From: an uncultured Acetatifactor sp.
GTDB taxonomy: Bacteria; Bacillota; Clostridia; Lachnospirales; Lachnospiraceae
Direction of reading: 5' to 3'
Assembly: GCA_934436435.1 (NCBI GenBank)
Contig: CAKSAN010000004.1
Span: forward strand, 62,001-126,000
Length of the DNA: 64,000 nucleotides
Below the pieces are notes generated by a model. That model was not told the DNA's origin. It did not search any database and saw only the letters and a program-made list of their open reading frames with translations. A program made the position numbers and the translations under genes. Each line of letters starts with the position of its first letter. Position 1 is the first letter of the stretch. Of this stretch, positions 19,856-59,027 are shown piece after piece.

Positions 19856-20509
19856 ATGAAGAAAGCAGCAATTTTTGATCTGGACGGAACCTTATCCGAT
19901 TCCATTATGAGCATGAAATACAGCGGAGACAAGACCATGGCGGAATTCGGCTATGGTCCTTTCTCCGTACAGGATTACAAATATTTTGTAGGTGACGGTG
20001 CCGCCAATCTGGTGAAGCGGGCGCTGATCAAGGGCGGAGATACCGGTCTGACCCATTTTGAGGCAGCCTATGCCAGATACAAAGAGATCTTTCAGGCAAA
20101 CTGCATGTATCAGGTGAAGCCTTATGAAGGAATCCCGGAACTGCTGGAAGAGTTGAAGAAACGTGGAATGAAGATCGCCGTATTGTCCAACAAGCCCCAC
20201 CATGCCACCGTGGATGTCATCGAGAGCCTGTTTGGCAAGGGCTATTTTGACGTGGTGCAGGGACAGGTGGACGGCGTACCCATCAAGCCCGATCCCGCCG
20301 GAGTCTTCCGGATCCTGGATCAGTTTGGCCTCACCGCAGACGAAGTGCTGTACATGGGAGACACCGCCACAGACATGAAGACCGGCAAGGCCGCCGGTGC
20401 CTTCACCGTAGGTGTCCTCTGGGGCTTCCGCGACCGCAAGGAACTGGAAGAAGGCCACGCCGACGCCATTATCGCCCATCCGTTGGAACTGTTGAATTAT
20501 TGTGAATAA
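19856..20509 (+). CDS. HAD hydrolase, phosphoglycolate phosphatase-like
   Basis: The protein has 217 residues. HAD motifs are in order: motif I DLDGTLSDS (about 8-16), motif II AVLSNKP, motif III lysine in PIKPDP, and motif IV YMGDTATDMKTGKAAG. The helical cap between motifs I and II is of the Gph/PGMB type. It removes phosphate from a small metabolite; phosphoglycolate and beta-phosphoglucomutase-type substrates cannot be distinguished here. AGGAGA lies upstream and the gap to maf is 9 nt, so it ends the polyphosphate/maf operon. The 52-bp palindrome array begins 24 nt after its stop. Confidence 0.88.
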   Translation: MKKAAIFDLDGTLSDSIMSMKYSGDKTMAEFGYGPFSVQDYKYFVGDGAANLVKRALIKGGDTGLTHFEAAYARYKEIFQANCMYQVKPYEGIPELLEELKKRGMKIAVLSNKPHHATVDVIESLFGKGYFDVVQGQVDGVPIKPDPAGVFRILDQFGLTADEVLYMGDTATDMKTGKAAGAFTVGVLWGFRDRKELEEGHADAIIAHPLELLNYCE

Positions 20510-20532
20510 TGTGAGTTAGAAGATATGGCTTC

Positions 20533-21006
20533 TATGCCCAGGCTTTTCAAAATGCAGGGGTATAGAAGCTATTTTATGCTATTTATACCCAGAGGCGGGC
20601 AGCCTCGAGGGTATGGAGAGCATAGTCATGCCATATATACCCAGAGGCAAGCAGCCTCGAGGGTATGGAGAGCATATTCATGCCATATATACCCAGAGTC
20701 TGGCAGCCCCGAGGGTATGGAGAACGTATTCGTGCCATATATACCCAGAGTCTGACAGCCTCGAGGGTATGGAGAGCATATTCATGCCATATATACCCAG
20801 AGGCAAGTAGAATCGAGGGTATGGAGAGCATATTCATGCCATATATACCCAGAGGCAGGCAGTCCCGAGGGTATGGAGAGTGTATTCGTGCTATATATAC
20901 CCAGAGGTAAGCAACTCCGAGGGTATGGAAACCATATTTGTGTTATATATACCCTATCATGAACAGAGGGGAGGGTATAAAAGCCTCTTTTGTGTTGTGC
21001 ATACCC
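20533..21006. repeat. 52-bp tandem palindromic repeat array, 8-9 units
   Basis: ATACCC recurs at 20585, 20637, 20689, 20741, 20793, 20845, 20897, 20949 and 21001, an exact 52-bp period; a divergent unit (ATGCCC) begins at 20534. Each full unit also contains GGGTAT 24 bp after ATACCC starts, so ATACCC/GGGTAT form the ends of a hairpin. GAGGC/GCCTC extends this stem in the first two units. The stretch from GGGTATGG to CCATATATACCC is a second, overlapping palindrome with a GCAT/ATGC centre. Central bases vary most. Reading frames run through it only because 52 is not a multiple of 3. The whole 660-bp gap 20510-21169 holds no gene. Confidence 0.9.
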
Positions 21007-21169
21007 TCCCTACACATATGTAGATTCAGAAAAAGGAATAATAATATTTTCATTTCGGCTTCACGCTGACAAATATAAACAGTGAAAAAATAACCGATTG
21101 ACGTAAGCACCCATCCATATTATTATGAAAATAAATAAGACATTTTCGTAAGAATTTGGAGGTAATAGT

Positions 21170-21433
21170 ATGCGTGAGTATGATGATGCGGTACTGGAAT
21201 GCTTCCTGGACAAACAGCTCCAGCTTTTTCCGGAAGCCGTAGCAGAGACCCTGGATGAAGCAGAAGATTTTCTGGAAGAGTGCATGGCAGTTGTGGTAGA
21301 TTCCGTGGATGATGTCATCGAGTATTTCGATGAAGCCGGCATGGATATGGACGGCGCTGTGGATGATGAGATTCTGGAAGCAGATGAAGTATTCGATATC
21401 GGAGACGGCAGATACCTGATCGTAGAAGCGTAG
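21170..21433 (+). CDS. Small acidic conserved hypothetical protein
   Basis: The protein has 87 residues and is strongly acidic (many Asp/Glu, very few Lys/Arg). A good GGAGG lies 7-8 nt before the ATG. The sequence alternates helix-forming acidic stretches (AETLDEAEDFLEECMAVVVDSVDDVIEYFDE) and ends in DIGDGRYLIVEA. Similar small proteins occur in Lachnospiraceae, where automatic annotation sometimes calls them glyoxalase; nothing here supports that activity. It stands alone between the palindrome array and a strong terminator. Confidence 0.7.
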   Translation: MREYDDAVLECFLDKQLQLFPEAVAETLDEAEDFLEECMAVVVDSVDDVIEYFDEAGMDMDGAVDDEILEADEVFDIGDGRYLIVEA

Positions 21434-21450
21434 AACAAAGACAGACGAAG

Positions 21451-21494
21451 GATCCCCGGGAACAGGAAACGGTTCCCGGGGATCTTTTGCGTTT
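21451..21494 (+). terminator. Strong rho-independent terminator
   Basis: GATCCCCGGGAAC and GTTCCCGGGGATC form a perfect 13-bp stem with an 8-nt loop, followed by TTTT, 18 nt after the acidic-protein stop codon. Confidence 0.9.
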
Positions 21495-21516
21495 GTGTGC
21501 CCGGCGGCGCACGTTT

Positions 21517-23294
21517 TTATTTCTTCCGGTACTCTGCCGGACTGATGTCCATGATCTTGCGGAACTTCTGGTGGAAGTAGTCCACGTTTTTGTAGCCCAC
21601 ACGGGCGGCGATCTCGTAAACCTTCATGTCGGTCTGATCCAGCAGCTCCGTTGCCTTGCGGACCCGCAGCTGGTCCAGATAGGTGTTGAAGCTGATGCCG
21701 GTGCGCTGGGTGAACAGCTTGCCCAGATAGGAACTATTGTAGCCGAACAGAGGAGCGATGGTCTCTAACTTTAACGGCTCGCTGTAGTTGCGGGAAATAT
21801 AGTCCAGAATGTCATCGAAGATGCTTTCACTGGCATTGCCGCCGATGCCCCGGATGATCGTGTCGAACTGCTCCGTAAAATACAACAGGATCTCGTACAG
21901 ATAGTGCTTGCTCTCGATCAGCTCCAGGATCGCCGCATTGTGGGAAAACGGCAGCTCCAGATCCCCGTAGGTATGGGAAATGTCCTGCTTGATCTGGAGA
22001 AAAATATCCGCCAGAAAATACTTGATATTGGAAGTCCCGTCGTTGCTGACATAGAGCTCCCGTTTCAGACGGTCCAGCGTCTCGGAGATCCGGCAATTGG
22101 TCGTAGGACAGGACATGCTGGTTCTCGTCGCAGAAAAAGCGGCGTTTCATCAGCTTACAGCAGACGTCATAGGAAGTATGGATCTGTTGCAGAGAAGTGA
22201 CAGCGGGGCCGTAGGTCAGGAAAATGGTGTCCAGTGGAGAGCCTTTCTGTGTCCCCTCTTCATAATGCCGCAGGCAGTCCTGAAAACGTTCCAAGGCAAA
22301 ATTCCCTTTTAACAGGATCACGTTCTGACCGTCGATGGAGACACTTTCAAAGGAATTCCCTGCCGGTGAGCAGGTCCATCAGCACGGTGGCTTTCAGATC
22401 CTCGAAGGTCTCAGTCAGCTCGTCGTCCCCCTTTACCTCGTCAATGATATTGTAATCTCCCAGACGGGCGCGGTGCATGGCTGCTTTTAAGGTGCCAACC
22501 CGTTTGCTGAAAAAGGAGGAGAACAGCAGGATCACCAGTGTCGGCACACTGACCGCCAGCGTAATGATCAGGATGTAGAGCAGGGTCATGTGGTTGACGC
22601 TTTCCTGTGCGGTGGAATCATTGGTGCAGATATAGAAATAGTTGTTGGTCTTGTAAGGGGTAAAGGTGGCAATGTGGGATAGCATTTTTTGCCCCTGCAA
22701 CTGCGTATTTCCGGTGTAGGAACAATAGCTGCCGTTAAAATCCGCCGGAAACGGCAGATTGCTGCCAAGGAGTCTGCGGTCGGAAGCATAGAAGACCGGC
22801 AGGGAATCCACACTGATCAGCACCAGATTGTCCGACTGTTCGATCCGGTTCTTCAGGTAATTATTGTCCAGACGTAAGACCAGATAGGCGGAGTACTCCT
22901 GCGATACCACGGCCAGCTTTTTTACCAGAGCCAGTTCGGTGTAGGGATTGCCTACAATGTCCGTAGTGGTGAGACAGGTCCAGGTACTCCACTCATTTCC
23001 CAGATTGTTATACCATTCTTCCTTCGCTATCTCAGGTACGTAAGTGATATGGCTGCGGTCCGGGATCCCGGGATTGTTGGTATAGATCGTAATGGAGGAT
23101 ACCGCTGCGGTGTTCTGGCGGAACAGCGCCAGGTTATTGTCCAGCCGGTCCAGAGCCGCCAGAGTTTCCTCACCCGCAGGCTGTCTGCGGTGACCTGCGA
23201 CCGGTAATGTTCCAGCATCTGGTTCCGGACATGAATAATAGAAAAGACACCAAAAATGACCATAGGAAATCCTATTTTTTTCCCGTATACTCAT
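21517..23294 (-). pseudogene. Frameshifted AraC-type membrane sensor/regulator
   Basis: The parts of one protein are spread over three frames on the minus strand. In order they are: a start at 23294 and a broken first membrane helix (MVIFGVFSIIHVRNQM); an extracellular sensor domain (about 23160-22600); a second helix (LLYILIITLAVSVPTLVILLF); a HAMP-like linker; a middle domain (VILLKGNFALERFQDCL); and an intact C-terminal AraC HTH (ETIAPLFGYNSSYLGKLFTQ, YEIAARVGYKNVDYFHQKF). Frame changes fall near 23265-23283 (at a 7-base homopolymer), 23170-23195, 22350-22360 and 22076-22100. With at least four shifts and intact genes all around, true decay is more likely than read error. It is divergent from yicI and was probably its regulator. 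The intact HTH fragment (21517-22116) might still be made. Confidence 0.85.
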
Positions 23295-23332
23295 CTTAGA
23301 AAACGAAAATAAGACAGGAGGATGCACACTGT

Positions 23333-25591
23333 ATGAAATTTAGTAACGGATGTTGGCTGCAAAAGGAAGGCTGTGTCTGCTTTTCCCCGGCAGAGGTATA
23401 TTTTGTCAAAAAAGAAGGGGAGAAACTGATCCTCTGTGCACCGACCCATAAGGTGGCGCACCGGGGCGATACGCTGGGAGGCGTCAATCTGCCACAGGAT
23501 CCGGGCAGCATGGATGCGGACTGCGGAGAAGAGCAGATCGTGGTGCGCAGCGGCAGGGCGAAACTGGTCATTGATGTGAAAGCGTTCCGCATGACTTATT
23601 ACATAGATGACCGGAAGAAGTGTTCCAGCGGCTGGCGGGATCTGGCTTATATGAAAACGGACTGGAAGGGCGATGCCTATGTGAAAAGCTCGGATACCGA
23701 TGCCTATATGCGTCAGCAGTTGTCCCTCGGTGTGGGAGAACTGATCTACGGCATGGGAGAACGCTTCGCCGCCATGATCCGGAACGGGCAGAGCGTGGAC
23801 ATCTGGAACGAGGATGGCGGAACCAGCACCGACCAGTCTTATAAAAATATTCCGTTCTATCTGTCCAATAAAGGATACGGCGTTTTCGTAAACCACCCGG
23901 AAAAGGTTTCTTTTGAGGTGGCAACGGAAGCCGTGACCAAGGTGGAATTCTCTGTGCCGGGAGAAAGTCTGGATTACTTTTTTATCGGTGGAGAGGACTT
24001 AAAGGATGTGCTGCGTCATTACACCGATCTCACGGGAAAACCGGCACTGCCGCCCGCATGGACCTTCGGCCTGTGGCTGTCTACCTCCTTTACGACCAAT
24101 TATGATGAAGCAACGGTCATGAGCTTTATCGACGGCATGCTGAACCGCGGTATCCCTCTGAAAGTGTTCCATTTTGACTGTTTCTGGATGAAGGATTTCC
24201 ACTGGTCAGATTTCGTATGGGATCAGAGAGTGTTCCCGGATCCGAAGGGGATGTTATCCCGGATCAAGGCCAAAGGATTAAAGATCTGCGTGTGGATCAA
24301 TCCCTACATTGCCCAGGAATCCGTACTGTTTGACGAGGGCATGGAAAAAGGCTATTTTCTGCATCGGCCCGACGGTTCCGTATGGCAGTGGGATATGTGG
24401 CAGCCGGGCATGGCCATCGTGGACTTCACCAATCCGGCGGCAACAGCCTGGTATCAGGAGAAGCTGGAGGCTCTTTTAGACATGGGTGTGGACTGTTTCA
24501 AGACAGACTTCGGCGAGCGGATTCCTACGGACTGTGTGTACTACAATGGCATGGATCCGGTGAAAATGCACAATTACTATACCTATTTATATAATCAGAC
24601 CGTATTTGAAATGCTGGAACGCAAGCGCGGCAAGGGGGAAGCAGTGCTCTTTGCCAGAAGCGCCACCGTGTGGGGACAGAAGTTCCCGGTACACTGGGGC
24701 GGCGACTGCTGGTCGGATTATGAATCCATGGAGGAAAGCCTTCGGGGAGGATTGTCTCTGCAAATGTCCGGCTTCGGTTTCTGGAGCCATGACATCGGCG
24801 GTTTCGAGAGCACTTCCACACCGGATGTTTATAAGAGATGGTGTGCCTTCGGACTACTGTCTTCCCACAGCCGGCTCCACGGAAGCACTTCCTATCGTGT
24901 GCCCTGGGCCTATGACGAAGAGGCTGTGGATGTGGTGCGGTTTTTCACCAGATTAAAATCCCGTCTGATGCCCTATCTGTGGAAGACAGCTTTACAGGCT
25001 CATAACGAGGGCATTCCCTCCATGCGGGCCATGGTGCTGGAATACCCGCAGGATAAGATGTGCAACTATCTGGACAAACAGTATCTGCTGGGAGATTCCC
25101 TGCTGGTGGCACCGATCTTCAATGAAGAAGGAATCGGAGAATACTACTTGCCGGAAGAAAACGGCAGATGGACGAACTTCTTTACCGGAGAACAGGAAGC
25201 GGGCGGGAAATGGTACTCCCGCAAGGTAGGCTACTGTGATATTCCGCTGATGGTACGGCCGAATTCCGTGATCCCCTTTGGGTATAGTGAAGAAGGGCCG
25301 GAATATGATTACGGGGAAAATATCACCTTCCGGGTATATGAGATCACCGACCGGGCGACGGCCGTTGTGTATGACAGGGAGGGGAAAAAATGCGCGGAAC
25401 TTACAGCGGTAAGACAGGGGGAAGAACTGCAGCTGGAAGTACATGCACCGAAAGGATGCACCATAGAATTATGGAATCTGTCCGTGAAGGAAGTACAGGG
25501 GGCAAGCGTCACGGCAGAAGAAAACAGAACCATACTGGAACCTGCGGCAGACAAGATACTCTGCCGGACAGACGGACCGGTTCGCGGATAG
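23333..25591 (+). CDS. yicI: Alpha-xylosidase, GH31 (YicI-like)
   Basis: The protein has 752 residues, close to E. coli YicI, and follows its architecture. The nucleophile Asp lies in CFKTDFGERIPTD (about 391) and the acid/base Asp in VHWGGDCWSDYESM (about 458). Substrate-pocket patterns FHFDCFWM, WINPYIAQES and FWSHDIGGFE are all present. It removes alpha-linked xylose from the non-reducing end of xyloglucan oligosaccharides such as isoprimeverose, in the cytosol (no signal peptide). The start follows AGGAGG. Its divergent regulator gene is broken, so control may have been lost or moved. A terminator follows directly. Confidence 0.93.
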   Translation: MKFSNGCWLQKEGCVCFSPAEVYFVKKEGEKLILCAPTHKVAHRGDTLGGVNLPQDPGSMDADCGEEQIVVRSGRAKLVIDVKAFRMTYYIDDRKKCSSGWRDLAYMKTDWKGDAYVKSSDTDAYMRQQLSLGVGELIYGMGERFAAMIRNGQSVDIWNEDGGTSTDQSYKNIPFYLSNKGYGVFVNHPEKVSFEVATEAVTKVEFSVPGESLDYFFIGGEDLKDVLRHYTDLTGKPALPPAWTFGLWLSTSFTTNYDEATVMSFIDGMLNRGIPLKVFHFDCFWMKDFHWSDFVWDQRVFPDPKGMLSRIKAKGLKICVWINPYIAQESVLFDEGMEKGYFLHRPDGSVWQWDMWQPGMAIVDFTNPAATAWYQEKLEALLDMGVDCFKTDFGERIPTDCVYYNGMDPVKMHNYYTYLYNQTVFEMLERKRGKGEAVLFARSATVWGQKFPVHWGGDCWSDYESMEESLRGGLSLQMSGFGFWSHDIGGFESTSTPDVYKRWCAFGLLSSHSRLHGSTSYRVPWAYDEEAVDVVRFFTRLKSRLMPYLWKTALQAHNEGIPSMRAMVLEYPQDKMCNYLDKQYLLGDSLLVAPIFNEEGIGEYYLPEENGRWTNFFTGEQEAGGKWYSRKVGYCDIPLMVRPNSVIPFGYSEEGPEYDYGENITFRVYEITDRATAVVYDREGKKCAELTAVRQGEELQLEVHAPKGCTIELWNLSVKEVQGASVTAEENRTILEPAADKILCRTDGPVRG

Positions 25592-25603
25592 ACGGGAATA
25601 AAC

Positions 25604-57854: not shown

Positions 57855-59027
57855 ATGACGAAAATAGATGTAGTATCCGGATTCCTGGGTGCCGGCAAGA
57901 CCACCCTGATCAAGAAGCTGTTAAAAGAAGCGCTGGACGGCAGCAAGACCGTTCTGATCGAGAACGAGTTTGGTGAGATCGGTATCGACGGTGGTTTCTT
58001 AAAAGAGGCCGGTATCGAGATCAAGGAGATGAACTCCGGTTGTATCTGCTGCTCTCTGGTAGGAGACTTCGGTACTTCCCTGAAGGAAGTGATCAGCACC
58101 TACGCTCCCGAGCGTATCCTGATCGAGCCCTCCGGTGTCGGCAAGCTGTCCGATGTCCTGAAGGCTGTGGAGAACGTGGCAGGTGATCTGGATGTGGAGA
58201 TCAACAGTGCGGTGGCAGTGGTAGATGCTTCCAAGTGCAAGATGTATATGAAGAACTTCGGTGAATTCTTCAGCAACCAGATCGAATACGCCGGAACCAT
58301 TATTTTGAGCAGAACCGACAAGGTAGATCAGGCCAAGCTGAACGCCTGCGTGGAGATGATCCGTGAGCATAATGATAAAGCTACTATCATCACCACCCCT
58401 CTTGACCAGCTGGATGGAAAGGAAGTACTCAAGACCATCGAAGGTGCCGACAAGCTGGAAGATATGATGAAGGAAATGCTGGAGCATATCCATGATGATC
58501 ACGATGAGGATGAGTGCTGCTGCGGACACCATCACGATGACGACGATGATGAGGACGAGCACGAACATCACCATCACCATAACCATGATGAGGACGAGCA
58601 CGAACATCACCATCATCATGACCATGATGAGGACGAGCATGAGCATCACCATCATCACGACCATGACGAAGACCATGACCATGAGCATGACGAGAACTGC
58701 ACCTGCGGCTGCCACGATCATGACCATGACCACCACCATCATCACCATCACGCAGACGAAGTATTCACCAGCTGGGGTATCGAGACGCCCAACACCTACA
58801 GCGCAGAGGACATCGAGAAGATCCTTACCGCTTTGGACAGCGGGGAGTACGGTGCAATCCTGCGTGCCAAGGGTATGGTGCCCGCTCCCGACGGAACCTG
58901 GGTATATTACGATTATGTTCCCGAAGAGCATGACATCAGAAGCGGCAAGCCGGAAGTCACCGGTAAGATCTGTGTCATCGGTTCCAAGCTGGACGAGGAC
59001 AAGCTGGCAGAGCTGTTCCGTAAGTAA
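57855..59027 (+). CDS. CobW/COG0523 GTPase with long His-rich metal-binding tract
   Basis: The ATG at 57855 (GGAGG 8 nt upstream) gives 390 residues. The G domain is complete: GFLGAGKTTLIKKLL (P-loop, about 8-16), ENEFGEIGIDG, the hallmark CxCC as SGCICC (about 62-66), LIEPSGVGK, and the NKxD-type SRTDKVD. Residues about 210-300 are extraordinarily rich in His and Asp/Glu, including three 13-residue repeats (DEDEHEHHHHHNH). Then CGC and further HDHDHDHHHHHHH stretches follow before the C-terminal CobW domain. COG0523 GTPases deliver metals, usually zinc, to client proteins, and the tract fits zinc buffering or storage. It leads a probable metal operon. Confidence 0.92.
   Translation: MTKIDVVSGFLGAGKTTLIKKLLKEALDGSKTVLIENEFGEIGIDGGFLKEAGIEIKEMNSGCICCSLVGDFGTSLKEVISTYAPERILIEPSGVGKLSDVLKAVENVAGDLDVEINSAVAVVDASKCKMYMKNFGEFFSNQIEYAGTIILSRTDKVDQAKLNACVEMIREHNDKATIITTPLDQLDGKEVLKTIEGADKLEDMMKEMLEHIHDDHDEDECCCGHHHDDDDDEDEHEHHHHHNHDEDEHEHHHHHDHDEDEHEHHHHHDHDEDHDHEHDENCTCGCHDHDHDHHHHHHHADEVFTSWGIETPNTYSAEDIEKILTALDSGEYGAILRAKGMVPAPDGTWVYYDYVPEEHDIRSGKPEVTGKICVIGSKLDEDKLAELFRK
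58566..58685 (+). repeat. 39-bp in-frame His-rich repeats
   Basis: About three tandem 39-bp units encode DEDEHEHHHHH(N/D)H within the CobW protein. The nucleotide repeats are close to identical, which makes copy-number change by slippage likely. Confidence 0.75.

Follow-up and report, generated by a model that had tools for sequence, protein, structure and literature searches.

What purpose is served by a strictly periodic array of short inverted words lying between two genes of an uncultured Acetatifactor sp.? In the window, by which we mean the whole stretch of 64,000 nucleotides analysed, ATACCC occurs nine times at a spacing of exactly 52 bp (20585, 20637, 20689, 20741, 20793, 20845, 20897, 20949 and 21001), and the drift-free period given in the preliminary description was thus exact at all nine positions. 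GGGTAT also occurs nine times, at 20558 and then every 52 bp over 20609-20973; the statement that it always lies 24 bp after ATACCC holds for eight of the nine, the last ATACCC having none after it, and the first GGGTAT lies 27 bp ahead of the first ATACCC. The 52-bp array proper (20585..21006, no strand assigned) comprises nine ATACCC and eight GGGTAT 24 bp after them, and TRF reported a period of 52, 7.3 copies, 86% matches and 0% indels over 20576-20954. The words also form rigid pairs GGGTAT-N22-ATACCC, for example at 20609..20642 (no strand assigned), with seven further pairs starting at 20661, 20713, 20765, 20817, 20869, 20921 and 20973 and an N21 variant at 20558-20590. The first GGGTAT belongs to an atypical unit (20525..20572, + strand) with a 15-bp hairpin, ATGGCTTCTATGCCC...GGGGTATAGAAGCTAT (-26.8 kcal/mol, z -6.0), in which ATACCC is replaced by ATGCCC. 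A longer palindrome, GGGTATGG...CCATATATACCC, had been proposed for each unit and proved only partly general on inspection by eye, with GG after GGGTAT in 7/9 and CCATAT before ATACCC in 5/9 cases. No second copy of the array was detected by blastn inside the 64-kb window. On both strands, several reading frames stay open over 20525-20910 (ORFs of 65-84 aa), and automatic annotation may therefore list small proteins there that do not exist.

That bases vary between the words was borne out in the window array, where departures from the consensus affect 59 of 288 interior positions and 0 of 48 positions of the right word. With only the left word used to place the lattice, 12 of 13 loci yielded arrays of four or more units, and bases off the array consensus in these 12 arrays numbered 2/390 in the right word, 3/260 in the outer CG and 285/2340 in the interior (Fisher p 1e-17). 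The half-sites are constant while the interiors vary. Mean interior identity was 76% within arrays, 47% between 12 arrays of genome G426 and 37% between species, and the interiors are not wholly free, as the 47% between G426 arrays compares with 31% expected from composition. Identities of the words themselves, being fixed by construction, were left out of this comparison. The exclusion of a coding repeat and of CRISPR in the preliminary description was supported on both counts: a 52-bp unit is not divisible by three and would change the reading frame at every repeat, and the intervals, at the identity given above, are alike within arrays and lack the unrelated unique spacers of a CRISPR array.

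The array sits between a putative HAD-like hydrolase ORF of 217 aa (19856..20509, + strand, named from its sequence) and a small acidic ORF of 87 aa (21170..21433, + strand), which is syntenic with HAD in many relatives. A putative promoter-like TTGACG-17-TATTAT (21098..21126, + strand), identified as a consensus match, lies upstream of the acidic ORF in DNA common to the two nearest genomes (L001 and L002). The nearest relative found was Lachnospiraceae bacterium GAM79 (L001), with a HAD identity of 98% and flanks ~89% identical; collinearity ends at 20527 and returns at 21097, leaving a species-specific block (20528..21096, no strand assigned). Neither L001 nor L002 has the window array in the corresponding HAD/acidic-ORF gap, indicating no conserved tie to these two genes; GAM79 carries a different element of ~500 bp there, and L002 a relative of the second part of that element (75% identical). 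The gap measures 48-185 bp in ten outgroups (L003-L006, L009-L011 and L013-L015) and is longer or absent in others, and none of the 80 HAD loci kept, out of 115 encoding a relative, contained paired words at 12-26 bp. Further downstream, a block at 21437-25592 likewise has no counterpart at this place in L001 and L002 and includes a glycosidase-like ORF of 752 aa (23333-25591); AraC/YesN-like ORFs at 21517-22116 and 22347-23327 on the minus strand look like one split gene (all names by eye). Elsewhere in the window, a tandem repeat with many His, Asp and Glu codons (58542-58693; 39-, 24- and 6-bp periods) perhaps encodes a metal-binding protein stretch, and repeats of 18, 36 and 72 bp at 1462-1715, all multiples of three, are probably coding.

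Recurrence was analysed with a four-word pattern at the window spacing, GGGTAT-N22-ATACCC-N18-GGGTAT-N22-ATACCC, and with the backward pattern as control. Allowing up to three mismatches, it was found in 4/138 genus genomes, at one place each in GAM79 and G409, seven in G349 and 63 in G426, and the control was absent from all 138. With up to two mismatches it was found in 3/397 family genomes (GAM79, the centre of the comparison, G092 and G227) and in 1/391 class genomes (again GAM79). Exact single GGGTAT-N22-ATACCC pairs numbered 78 in G426 (control 0) and four or fewer in GAM79 and G349; at least one such pair was present in 36/138 genomes as counted from the result rows, against 21 with a control match, so that single pairs carry little meaning. 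The G426 arrays are spread over at least 13 contigs, two contig pairs with like interiors being possible halves of one array. Among 20 array-flanking ORFs searched against Pfam, 16 were assigned to a family and four to none, and these families (ribonucleotide reductase, acyltransferase, MatE, Na/H exchanger, glycosyltransferase, EPSP synthase, HAD, sodium symporter and others) tie the arrays to no single gene family. Absence of the period and the paired words from relatives had been named as the finding that would speak against the preliminary description; the layout recurs at other loci and in related species, and the same words and spacing occur with different interiors in other Lachnospiraceae, so the window array is not a one-off. 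Its own sequence gave no blastn match in plasmids and phages, none in six relatives searched at the DNA level (0/6) and two in 101 genus genomes, both confined to the 3' flank; two exact patterns had 0 and 0 matches in viral contigs, and a pattern with window-specific bases, which was too strict, had none in 299 family genomes. Several other repeats were seen alongside. G409 contains related arrays (L224:2077-2626 and L195:3193-3379) built on the word TGGGTA/TACCCA, with an uneven period of ~50-53 bp, and G352 a 102-bp repeat (L216:1565-1880) with one GGGTAT-N22-ATACCC pair and a large hairpin per unit. Short arrays in three genomes (L215 in G384, L219 in G359, L222 and L223 in G227) mix pair spacings of ~52 and ~71 bp, and G366 carries four dispersed near-identical copies (C8, C19, C29 and C47) of a different element with GGGTAT-N22-ATACCC, which constitutes its own repeat family.

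A word-blind TRF scan covering 2.4 of the 4.08 Mb of GAM79 led to arrays with inverted G-tract words at 466.7 kb (period 51, ATACCC/GGGTAT), 2518.5 kb (period 53), 2918.0 kb (period 52), 3108.9 kb (period 52, 10.7 copies, the last two units being of GGGTAT type) and 3306.6 kb (period 52). A sixth, at 1341.4 kb (period 52, 13 TAAGCCCC in L325), was found by word pattern search. Five of the six use another word, CGGGGCTTA, on the 51-53 bp period. The TRF results also include a 53-bp array at 3170 kb without inverted words and arrays of other periods. The CTTA word pattern was detected in 2/138 genus genomes (GAM79 and G002; control 0), and orthologous arrays differ in unit number, with ~13 in GAM79 and ~3 in G002. 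Word polarity relative to replication was identical in 5/5 GAM79 arrays, the direction of transcription being confounded with replication. Separately, a 63-bp tandem repeat of GAM79 (G001:C1:713484-713778) contains AATTTCTACTAGTGTAGAT, which we take to be the direct repeat of Cas12a-type CRISPR arrays.

The preliminary description also pointed to a period close to five helical turns with fixed inverted words, and this was supported. Of 108 neighbouring pairs in 31 sequences, 84 were exactly 52.0 bp apart from centre to centre and 95 within 51.5-53 bp, the proportion at exactly 52 being too high except in the window and GAM79, since a fixed spacing had been used to find most loci. The other 13 distances were 42, 62, 70.5, 71, 71, 71.5, 74, 102, 103.5, 104, 104, 123 and 123 bp, the last five (103.5 to 123) reading as skipped units or sums. 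The GGGTAT/ATACCC pair itself measures 28 almost everywhere and 27 now and then, and the interval between pairs, usually 24, was 14, 33, 33, 34 or 34 once in each of five G426 arrays and 22 (L193), 23 (L194) and 43 (G227) elsewhere. For seven independent non-52 events the mean cosine was 0.736 at 10.2 bp per turn (null 0.0014) and 0.536 at 10.5 (null 0.016). Spacings off 52 bp (42, 62, ~71 and 102) thus fall mostly near whole helical turns, which is suggestive only, since events and period were picked after viewing the data. A gyrase-like G+C periodicity was rejected, as the 10.4-bp harmonic (mean 0.045) did not rise above its neighbours (0.058 and 0.040).

Words held at exact spacing, variable interiors and recurrence beside unrelated genes make a docking strip for a putative DNA-binding protein likely. 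The explanation we favour, at a confidence a little short of even, is therefore that of a phased DNA platform for a putative sequence-specific protein, lying inside BIME-like mosaic elements. Such a protein would occupy successive sites along the tandem inverted half-site pairs, all facing the same side of the helix, with a dimer or tetramer binding each rigid GGGTAT-N22-ATACCC; as neighbouring pairs are about five turns apart, contact between the bound proteins could build a filament or a wrapped patch. The intergenic patches might organise or insulate the chromosome locally, comparable to the BIME-2 arrays that attract gyrase in E. coli. The arrays themselves are probably carried by interchangeable BIME-like intergenic elements. 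Counting against the platform are the absence from the same gap in the sister species and the patchy distribution, which is odd for a general chromosome organiser. On the same side stand the small, post hoc set of seven spacing events behind the helical phasing, the flat G+C harmonics near 10 bp and the interior identity above expectation between G426 arrays. A bolder and rather doubtful proposal is that genome-wide helically phased half-site arrays in some Lachnospiraceae mark the chromosome for a putative undescribed DNA-binding protein, whose word would have shifted from GGGTAT to GGGGCTTA between lineages, in concert across unrelated loci and with the spacing kept at five turns. As position and word are held and content is not, selection on half-site spacing in chromosomal DNA becomes directly testable, and a binding protein, if found, would be a new chromosome-organising factor for abundant gut anaerobes. 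In practical terms, several G426 arrays lie at contig ends, and such arrays may break short-read assemblies.

The preliminary description had also considered a structured RNA of alternating hairpins, and we regard it as quite improbable that the array is transcribed into a hairpin chain lying at gene ends, where it would stabilise or terminate the upstream transcript or be processed from it. The predicted fold of the window array is strong (z -7.6 on the + strand and -5.4 on the - strand), although the + strand value is expected of any palindromic array. Hairpin A shows weak covariation, its score being reached by 20/500 shuffles, whereas hairpin B shows no excess (447/500). Read along the purine-rich strand, ORF maps place 14 of the 19 arrays with a readable upstream side behind a gene or tRNA of the same direction; five are not so placed, and in GAM79 a terminator-like hairpin (by eye) stands between the sodium symporter gene and its array. 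No Rfam family matches the arrays; the window gave two sub-threshold matches to unrelated families, and the four matches at 14 loci were all off the arrays. In five GAM79 arrays, 36/37 CTTA-type pairs among the top four classes per array are mismatched at one recurring position, chiefly as G.A; G092 shows C.A in 6/6 pairs counted. A mismatch common to five arrays indicates that each half-site is held as sequence and not as base pair; being shared by five unrelated arrays, it argues against base pairing as the selected property, so that the RNA proposal is disfavoured despite the strong fold and the covariation of hairpin A. Two further candidate signals of RNA were rejected. In the five GAM79 arrays measured, GC skew identifies the strand richer in purines as the leading one, so that replication-strand bias can explain the purine richness, which is weak in two of them (0.489 and 0.480 purine on +); strand-biased G.U pairs are explained equally by a transition bias, and G092 shows the opposite.

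Rather unlikely, too, is that an enzyme which multiplies or moves modular elements recognises the words, perhaps as single-strand hairpins, the arrays then being selfish, REP/BIME-like and devoid of host function. The non-coding ~500-bp element of GAM79 (L001:4660-5190, copies in L083-L121) starts right at the HAD stop codon; its first part recurs at 19 places (15 at 95-100% and four at 82-87% identity), its second part at 18 (96-100%) plus one short self-inverted match. The dispersed element starts with TAAATTGAGAGTTAGT, TAAATGGAAAGTTAGT or variants and finishes with the inverse, the ends being near-perfect. Three slots hold an array in one species and this element in the sister: that of the window, and two in G002 where arrays of the 3306-kb type adjoin DNA that borders the element in GAM79 (judged from one flank each). 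Array-bearing stretches with ATTGAGAGTTAC-like ends were found in G002 (L326 and L328) and at 3306 kb in GAM79, and the window has a left-terminal-repeat-like TAATGTGAGTTAG (20507..20519, + strand) that begins with the HAD stop codon, resembles the TAA(A)TTGAGAGTTAG of the GAM79 dispersed elements and is one mismatch from their GAGAGTTAG; no right end was found in the window, only this left-end-like TGTGAGTTAG directly after the stop codon. The earlier exclusion of a MITE therefore needs a qualifier, because one sister-genome array type lies inside elements with terminal-repeat-like ends and a similar left end precedes the window array. These swaps and ends, together with the patchy distribution, speak for this rival; as part of the platform explanation, we infer modular intergenic elements that exchange contents; arrays carried and exchanged by them would explain an array and another dispersed element in one slot of sister species. 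Against an enzyme acting on the words themselves stand interiors that differ among arrays of one genome, unlike recent copies, the lack of terminal repeats nearby, within the stretches scanned, in 4/5 GAM79 arrays, and the Y1_Tnp (RAYT) transposase, which had no match in array-bearing G426, G092 and G227, nor in G409, and one each in G349 and GAM79 (the GAM79 copy with an internal stop), besides occurring in 3/8 other relatives. Slippage of a neutral minisatellite would account for the varying unit number of orthologous arrays and for the species-specific window array; it is nevertheless very improbable, as the interiors vary but the words scarcely do, and loci without any relation to each other combine identical words and lattice with interiors that are unrelated.

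The best-known dispersed palindromic arrays are those of Proteobacteria, which are targets of gyrase and IHF and are associated with RAYT transposases. A human-microbiome survey lists palindromic structured-RNA candidates on both strands, some perhaps REP sequences; in its accessible text Bacteroidetes examples are named and 52-bp arrays are not (PMC8040213). For Lachnospiraceae, we found no description of a 52-bp inverted-word array in the openly licensed literature. The phased platform that we favour would resemble plasmid centromeres and phased operator arrays, in which half-sites are repeated at near-integral helical spacing; the arrays described here differ in being dispersed over many chromosomal sites. 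They share with MITEs the terminal-repeat-like ends that some array slots have in common with the GAM79 ~500-bp element, and differ in that the window array has a left-end-like remnant only and four GAM79 arrays lack such ends in the stretches scanned. A further likeness is to BIME-2/REP of Enterobacteria, Pseudomonads and Stenotrophomonas, described in the accessible parts of two papers as arrays of palindromic units in alternating orientation that bind gyrase (PMC2817692, PMC6379681): the arrays are likewise intergenic, dispersed tandem runs of palindromic units, alternate in orientation and change in unit number. A REP unit carries a GTAG or CGTC tetranucleotide at one end, according to the accessible text of PMC3733652, but on inspection by eye neither strand of the window consensus unit has one of these as a constant feature, GTAG occurring only in single units or arrays, e.g. 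in one window unit. REP copy number is usually above 100 per genome in the part of PMC2817692 available, compared to the 78 exact pairs in G426 and at most four of the GGGTAT word in GAM79 and G349. The exact 52-bp lattice and the locus-specific interiors also set the arrays apart. Since it lacks the tag motif and, in G426, G092 and G227, the Y1 transposase, the array is not filed as a BIME here, although it may work like one. The arrays form a class in gut Lachnospiraceae devoid of the REP tag and, in the array-richest genome, of the transposase.
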